Shown here: piece by piece, positions 48,339 through 49,605 of the stretch
Numbering within the stretch: the stretch's first letter is position 1
How the letters are laid out: each line of letters starts with the position of its first letter
Made by a program: the position numbers and the translations under genes
Source: Terriglobales bacterium
Lineage (GTDB): Bacteria; Acidobacteriota; Terriglobia; Bryobacterales; Bryobacteraceae
Direction of reading: 5' to 3'
Length of the DNA: 64,000 nucleotides
Assembly (NCBI GenBank): GCA_027485675.1
Contig: JAIXQP010000041.1
Location: 248,001 to 312,000, forward strand
Notes under the pieces: model-generated
The model's input: only the letters and a program-made list of their open reading frames with translations
What the model was told of the DNA's origin: nothing
Databases searched by the model: none

Positions 48339-48377
48339 ACGGCCGCCCGGGGGAGACCCTGGGCGGCCGTTTTCGTT
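48339..48377 (+). terminator. Rho-independent terminator after pnp
   Basis: ACGGCCGCCC…GGGCGGCCGT 10-bp stem followed by TTTCGTT. Confidence 0.9.
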
Positions 48378-48414
48378 GTCACCTTCGCTTCCGCTTTCGC
48401 ATCTTACCGGGTAG

Positions 48415-48591
48415 ATGAGCGAGATATTCCTTCCTTTAGCGATGATCGCGGGCTACGTGGTGCTGATGCGCTTCGTGCTGCCCAAAATGGGCGTGCCCAC
48501 TTGAATGAGCGGATGCGACGTCGAGTCTCGGCGTCCTGACCCGTTACTGCGTGAAGCGAAGCAGCCAACGCGAATCACTCCCGACAAATAG
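48415..48591 (+). CDS. Candidate small membrane selenoprotein with in-frame TGA (48502-48504) read as Sec
   Basis: MSEIFLPLAMIAGYVVLMRFVLPKMGVPT[U]MSGCDVESRRPDPLLREAKQPTRITPDK*, with a SECIS-like hairpin at 48517-48535. Confidence 0.6.
48517..48535 (+). promoter_or_regulatory. Putative bacterial SECIS stem-loop
   Basis: GACGTCGA-GTC-TCGGCGTC: 8 bp (one G-U) with a GUC loop, 20 nt between the TGA and the loop. Confidence 0.6.
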
Positions 48592-49605
48592 GCGGGCTTC
48601 GCGCCCGGCGCGCTTGTCGGTCTCTTCGACGCCGAGGCCGAGGGCCATGGGATACCAGCCCACGTTCGCCAGAATCTGCTGGGGCGGGGACCAGCCCTGG
48701 GGATCGGCCAAGCCGCTTGCGTAGCTGATGTAGATGCCCTCCGGCGGCCAGCCGGGTTCGCAGCAGGAGCGGTTCATCAGCATCACGTACTTGTTGAGGT
48801 AGGTGTTGAAGTGAATGGACGGCCCCCAGAAGGCGTCGGTGTTGGGGTTTGTCCAACTGACGGCCGCGGGGATGGCGGCTTCCGAGAGGCCGCCGAGTCC
48901 GGGCTCGTTCCACTCTCCGCCGTGCCGCTTCCAGACGTTGCCAACGGGCAAGAAACGGTCCTCGTAAGCGAGGCGGGCAACGGCAATGCCTTGCGCACTG
49001 AGGGGGCCGGCGTAGTTTGAGTAGTAGAGGTAGAAGTACTTGCCTTCTTCGTCGAGGAGCACACTGAAATCGCCGTTGCCCCCAGCGAAATAGCCGTTGG
49101 CGGCAGAGCAGTCCGCGGTCTCGCCGGCGGTGAGGATGATGCCGAGGTCGAAGAAGCTGATGCCGTTGTCGTAGGAGACGAGCATGCCGATCTCCGGGGC
49201 GCTGAGAAATTTCCCTTCACAGCCGACGCCAACTTCGTGGTGGTACCAGGCAAACAAAGTGCCGTCGGGATCGAGGTGGGTGGCTTCGATCCACATTGGC
49301 GCGTGGGCATAAGAATCGAACTTGACGGCGCGGACGCGGCGGAGGTTCGAGACCGTGGTCCCTTCGCTGCGGATCGGCATCCCGTCCGAGTTGAAGACGA
49401 TCATTTCGCCATTGCGCCAGTGCACCGGGCTATTGGAGTCGGAGATGCCGGGGAACCATTGCAGTTCTTCGTCGGTGACGGTGACCTGTTGCGCCAGAGT
49501 GGGAAACGCGAGTACGGAAAGGCAGACGAGGGCTCGTATACTAATCGGAATGCAATTGAGCGCTTTGGATTGGTTCGTCGTCGCGCTGTACTTCGCGTTG
49601 AACAT
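48544..49605 (-). CDS. Secreted beta-propeller-like protein (GH43/DUF4185-like), hypothetical
   Basis: Signal-like ALVCLSVLAFPTLAQ; YFYLYYSNYAGP; AFWGPSIHFNTYLNKYVMLMNRS; GIYISYASGLADPQGWSPPQQIL. Confidence 0.75.
   Translation of the reverse strand: MFNAKYSATTNQSKALNCIPISIRALVCLSVLAFPTLAQQVTVTDEELQWFPGISDSNSPVHWRNGEMIVFNSDGMPIRSEGTTVSNLRRVRAVKFDSYAHAPMWIEATHLDPDGTLFAWYHHEVGVGCEGKFLSAPEIGMLVSYDNGISFFDLGIILTAGETADCSAANGYFAGGNGDFSVLLDEEGKYFYLYYSNYAGPLSAQGIAVARLAYEDRFLPVGNVWKRHGGEWNEPGLGGLSEAAIPAAVSWTNPNTDAFWGPSIHFNTYLNKYVMLMNRSCCEPGWPPEGIYISYASGLADPQGWSPPQQILANVGWYPMALGLGVEETDKRAGREARLFVGSDSRWLLRFTQ

Follow-up and report, generated by a model that had tools for sequence, protein, structure and literature searches.

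A predicted membrane micro-selenoprotein gene behind pnp and its undescribed, selenocysteine-dominated family in Acidobacteriota

Identification of the selenoprotein gene

Positions 48415-48591 of the analysed stretch of 64,000 nucleotides (the window) were assigned as a genuine selenoprotein gene in which UGA is decoded as selenocysteine (Sec) through a downstream SECIS hairpin. The assignment rests on sequence comparison, without a Sec-incorporation experiment, and was given a probability of about 0.95. The sequence has the general marks of a selenoprotein gene, namely a conserved UGA flanked by coding sequence, a SECIS element, selA, selB, selC and selD in the genome, and homologues with Cys aligned to the UGA. 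As far as sequence can tell, the gene is the first member to be noticed of a family not described before, LPxxG[VI]xTU, that is widespread in Acidobacteriota. A preliminary description had proposed a membrane selenoprotein at this position; it had named absence of the Sec machinery, lack of homologues with TGA or Cys at the site and loss of the hairpin and C-terminal frame in relatives as outcomes that would refute it. All four sel genes were present, TGA or Cys homologues were found in many genomes and both hairpin and frame persisted, so that the proposal was supported on each point.

Locus and gene structure

The source genome comprises 6.59 Mb in 54 contigs and its close relatives are Acidobacteriota MAGs. 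The following features were assigned.

48340..48373, plus strand: intrinsic terminator of pnp, a G+C hairpin followed by TTTT, between pnp and the small gene (read from the sequence)
48377..48406, plus strand: putative ECF-type promoter, TGTCACC-N16-GCATCTTA, ending 8 nt 5' of the ATG
48415..48588, plus strand: predicted coding sequence of the 58-aa selenoprotein, stop codon TAG at 48589-48591 (from homologue comparison)
48427..48486, plus strand: predicted single membrane helix, codons 5-24 (AlphaFold2 helix; hydrophobic in all members)
48502..48504, plus strand: UGA predicted to be read as Sec, residue 30 (TGA or a Cys codon at this site in homologues)
48517..48535, plus strand: predicted bacterial SECIS hairpin, 8-bp stem with a GUC loop 20 nt after the UGA

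The frame begins with TAG-ATG at 48412-48417, runs for 29 codons to TGA at 48502-48504 and continues for 28 codons to the TAG at 48589-48591. Its translation is MSEIFLPLAMIAGYVVLMRFVLPKMGVPTUMSGCDVESRRPDPLLREAKQPTRITPDK. The hairpin, GACGUCGA-GUC-UCGGCGUC at 48517-48535, has eight pairs including one G-U. Every coordinate and sequence originally reported for frame, UGA, hairpin and 20-nt spacing was correct on re-reading.

The upstream gene was identified as pnp by its Pfam RNase_PH, KH and S1 domains, and its terminator hairpin is also present in close relatives. In the window's genus the selenoprotein gene stands alone after pnp. The placement behind pnp noted earlier is limited to that genus and gives no functional clue. 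A convergent open reading frame (48544-49605, minus strand, 353 aa) reaches with its C-terminus into the final 15 codons of the selenoprotein gene, so conservation of the tail residues TPDK is not independent evidence. A Pfam scan gave no match for this convergent frame; relatives of it adjoin the selenoprotein gene in other members of the genus.

Distribution and conservation of the family

A collection scan with the single sequence as query matched three Acidobacteriota over its full length and one KSB1 MAG over part of it, with TGA at the same place in all four. One further stretch from this first scan (L013) lacked a transmembrane helix and was rejected as a chance match. Of 61 relatives of the source genome, 24 matched; the codon at the site was TGA in 23 of them and TGT in the other. 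Searches with a profile were extended to the phylum, in which 82 of 396 sampled Acidobacteriota genomes matched; TGA lay inside 78 of the 83 matches, the other five being one Cys form and four weak matches that were discounted. Within the window's taxonomic family 48 of 121 genomes matched, with TGA in 46 of the 49 matches and a Cys codon in three. The search profile had been built with Cys at the Sec site, so it gave no advantage to TGA. A search of plasmids returned only a weak Cupriavidus match, in which no member of the family could be recognised.

Members are single-pass membrane proteins of roughly 45-75 residues. Most follow the pattern M-x(n)-[YW]-x3-[MQ]-[RK]-x-[VIL]-L-P-x-x-G-[VI]-x-T-U, usually continued by three or four intervening residues, a Cys and a short polar tail. 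P23, G26, T29 and U/C30 were invariant in 71 members. The second Cys was conserved in more than 90% of the alignment and was missing from, for example, L088, L112, L125, L127, L130 and L132. One genome (G089) carries two paralogues, L111 and L133, on different contigs.

Frame, UGA position and hairpin were retained across dozens of species. For nine members of the genus, pN/pS rose from 0.175 in the part before the UGA to 0.57 in the part that follows, where synonymous change was lower. This pattern would fit protein coding combined with an overlapping RNA element such as the SECIS, and was given little weight because the 3' part is also constrained by the convergent frame.

Selenocysteine machinery and Cys forms

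The source genome contains selA (454 bits), selB (380 bits), selC, the tRNA-Sec (70 bits), and selD (356 bits), the last with one in-frame TGA (G000:C23:56056-56964). This selD is itself probably a selenoprotein, as in Sec-containing SelD. From the presence of selA, selB, selC and a TGA-containing selD, the machinery is taken to be present and probably in use.

In one selA test set the gene was above cut-off in 17 of 17 Sec-form genomes. An earlier test among relatives had placed it above cut-off in 21 of 23 UGA genomes; the remaining two (G005 and G008) have completeness values of 83% and 62%. At the UGA position L029 and L084 have the Cys codon TGT, and L207 has TGC. The comparison of selA absence took in two of the three genomes with Cys forms, G247 and G033. 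No selA was found on searching G247, which is 99% complete, and none above cut-off in G033, which is 62% complete; a sister of the former (G349) had neither selA nor a match to the selenoprotein family. The third Cys-form genome (G471, with L207) was not part of this comparison, and another species in its genus has TGA.

The SECIS element

The published model of bacterial SECIS elements places the loop 16-37 nt from the UGA (PMC13188914), and the window hairpin conforms to the bacterial type, with G in its apical loop (GUC) 20 nt from the UGA. The hairpin lies within the minimum-energy structure given by RNAfold, but its energy as a single sequence was unexceptional against dinucleotide shuffles (z -0.79). 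As the hairpin sits in coding sequence, synonymous codons were shuffled as a further test; this gave p=0.017 for the window sequence and p<0.05 in 45 of 72 Sec members. Most Sec members place the loop 20-24 nt downstream of the UGA. No such hairpin was seen in the Cys members L029 and L084 (codon-shuffle p 0.51 and 0.99).

Covariation was analysed in an alignment of the downstream segments of 67 distinct Sec members. Two-sided changes were found at all eight pairs, and 77.8% were paired. There were 109 double-change cells against 37.3 in shuffles, and the covariation score was 0.478 against 0.197 in shuffles, with every slid pairing far lower. Unguided RNAalifold predicted five of the eight pairs. 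About a third of the Sec members failed the simple hairpin test, and some, for example L080, L081, L105, L126 and L128, had no simple perfect hairpin under the scoring used; the SECIS of such members may be irregular.

These data bear on the alternative that the gene encodes a 29-residue membrane peptide ending at the UGA, with the hairpin a terminator, an attenuator or a product of chance. A peptide of this kind would be nothing unusual among small membrane proteins, and the folding energy of the hairpin by itself does not speak against it. It would nevertheless leave unexplained why UGA, rather than TAA or TAG, is retained phylum-wide, why the frame goes on beyond it with a conserved Cys, and why UGA is exchanged for Cys where selA is missing. 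The hairpin moreover covaries at a fixed spacing and has no U-tract. The short peptide was accordingly regarded as very improbable.

Promoter motif

Most members of the window's genus have a TGTCAC-N(14-17)-GCATC motif close upstream of the ATG, as do several other genera of the taxonomic family. A near-leaderless transcript is inferred from the position of the putative promoter in the window. In its strict form the motif occurs twice in the source genome, at the selenoprotein gene and 5' of an osmC gene that is directly followed by an ECF sigma gene (G000:C16:47127-48107; L168:1501-2505). This osmC-ECF sigma pair recurs in three genus genomes, with a sigma homologue in all three osmC loci. 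Across 19 genus genomes the motif was counted 32 times, against about 10 for a reversed control. The recognisable genes downstream of it were the selenoprotein gene, osmC (three genomes), DUF302 (three) and a JAB-domain gene (four); remaining copies were scattered, and no match lay before a recognisable metal gene. The JAB-domain (JAMM) genes with the motif were seen in L174, L175, L192 and L193, from four genus genomes.

The ECF41 promoter has been given as TGTCACA-n16-CGTC (PMC3426412). It shares the -35-like TGTCAC and a similar spacing with the window motif, but has CGTC in place of GCATC as the -10-like element, so that the two are similar overall and not identical. No sigma factor of the source genome passed the TIGR02957 cut-off for ECF41, and ECF41 as the cognate sigma is unsupported. 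Recognition of the motif by an ECF sigma is an inference, for which the sigma encoded after osmC is the best candidate.

Genomic neighbourhood

Outside the window's genus the selenoprotein gene moves between settings, and its neighbours differ between genera. Among 142 proteins encoded immediately beside it were nine rhodaneses, seven DUF302 proteins, five RND transporters and four ArsR proteins, together with Usp, thioredoxin-like, metallo-beta-lactamase and OsmC proteins. Rhodanese/persulfide-dioxygenase-like proteins and a CoA-disulfide-reductase-like enzyme are among the neighbour types; RND efflux, an ArsP permease and a P-type ATPase were also seen. Distances were counted within the fetched stretches only, using profiles made from the neighbours themselves, with near defined as within 700 nt. 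DUF302 genes were near in nine loci and at middle or far distance in none, and rhodanese-type genes near in 10, at middle distance in four and far in two. RND (ACR_tran) genes, at 5, 6 and 4, were not clearly concentrated, and ABC and response-regulator controls showed no such concentration near the selenoprotein gene.

Individual loci had close arrangements. In L075 the gene for a rhodanese-domain pyridine-nucleotide-disulfide oxidoreductase stops 6 nt upstream of the selenoprotein gene; in L126 the upstream genes encode a rhodanese lipoprotein-like protein and a protein of metallo-beta-lactamase/rhodanese type. In L089 an osmC gene ends 27 nt upstream, with a divergent ECF sigma-like gene and an anti-sigma-like gene beside. 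An ArsP_1 permease gene and a Thioredoxin_3 gene adjoin it in L080. In the KSB1 MAG (L012:2776-2979) the order is a DUF6132 small membrane protein, the selenoprotein, an FmdB-type zinc ribbon and a thioredoxin-like protein. The best functional clue is that the promoter set and the neighbours in distant genera both include DUF302 and OsmC.

Topology and proposed function

The AlphaFold2 model (mean pLDDT 69) shows residues 5-24 as a helix, residues 30-33 as a second, short one, and a low-confidence tail, in agreement with the transmembrane helix and C-terminal Sec tail that had been postulated. The tail and the Sec are probably cytoplasmic; this is inferred, by the positive-inside rule, from the basic residues after the helix. 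The Sec/Cys redox pair that had also been postulated applies to most members but not to all: the second Cys, though highly conserved, is absent from some, and an internal selenenylsulfide cannot therefore be an obligatory mechanism.

As an inferred function, a redox or sulfur-transfer centre tethered to the membrane is proposed tentatively, at somewhat under even odds; its substrates would be sulfane sulfur (persulfides) or hydroperoxides, which it would reduce or pass on. The selenol would lie at the inner membrane face, in most members accompanied by a Cys four or five positions downstream, and would take up sulfane sulfur or reduce hydroperoxides. It would be recycled by thiol or flavin partners. 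The protein would work with OsmC, DUF302, rhodanese/persulfide-dioxygenase or CoA-disulfide-reductase-type partners. In the window's genus an ECF sigma would switch the selenoprotein gene on together with some of these partners.

Use of the selenol for soft-metal binding, making the protein part of metal or metalloid handling rather than sulfur or peroxide redox chemistry, would suit the RND genes near in five loci, the ArsR genes near in four and the ArsP_1 permease and Thioredoxin_3 genes beside L080. RND genes, however, lack the clear concentration seen for DUF302 and rhodanese-type genes, and the genes recognised behind the promoter motif include osmC, DUF302 and JAB genes but none for metals; this function was considered unlikely, without being dismissed. 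Redox-sensing anti-sigma proteins sense oxidants with Cys, and the small protein could instead have a structural or regulatory role, for example as a sensor partner of an ECF sigma in which Sec senses oxidants. The shared promoter motif of the osmC-ECF pair and the divergent ECF and anti-sigma-like genes adjoining L089 are compatible with such a role, which was rated lower still, since a separate anti-sigma-like protein already accompanies the sigma gene in L089 and most loci have no sigma gene nearby.

A broader reading, of phylum-wide, Sec-dominated single-pass micro-selenoproteins, SELENOK/SELENOS-like in design, that would act under ECF control and with OsmC and DUF302 as partners to counter reactive sulfur species or hydroperoxides at the membrane, remains as a whole a working hypothesis that may well prove wrong. 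It would suggest that Sec serves a membrane stress function in an abundant soil phylum and would tie OsmC and the uncharacterised DUF302 family to a selenol. Bacterial selenoproteins have been found mostly through Cys homologues of known enzymes. The present family, almost always in the Sec form, with few Cys homologues and fewer than 80 residues, is of a type missed by gene callers and by pipelines based on Cys homology.

Comparison with known systems

No meaningful match to Pfam or NCBIfam was obtained for the window protein or for any of 25 members. Searches of the PDB with the predicted structure (Foldseek) and with the sequence profile of the family gave no match, and nothing was over threshold in Rfam. 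The motif TUx3-4C is absent from Table 1 of a 2026 review that catalogues 119 families and subfamilies of prokaryotic selenoproteins (PMC13188914). A 2025 deep-Sep paper that examined one Acidobacteriota genome reported three selenoprotein genes there, all of them already known (PMC12013277). No description of the family was found in the open-access literature; a subscription-only paper could have been missed.

Small membrane proteins of the YgaP-like transmembrane type (PF11127, DUF2892) occur near some members of the family and have a helix ending in ...ILRKLGV..., but they have two helices and no Sec. Membership of YgaP-like_TM/DUF2892, considered on account of the common ...LxKLGV... ending, was rejected (hhalign probability 1.4%, no Pfam hit).

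With the SelB-dependent bacterial selenoproteins FdhF/FdhA and SelD the window protein shares a UGA-coded Sec, a downstream hairpin with G in its loop and the presence of selABCD in the genome; it differs from them as a tiny single-pass membrane protein that matches no Pfam or NCBIfam model. The eukaryotic proteins SELENOK and SELENOS have one transmembrane helix and carry Sec in a flexible cytosolic C-terminal segment. Their architecture is analogous to that predicted for the window protein, by analogy only and with no homology shown; in the window protein, unlike these, Sec follows an LPxxGVxT motif near the helix, with a SECIS that is bacterial in type.
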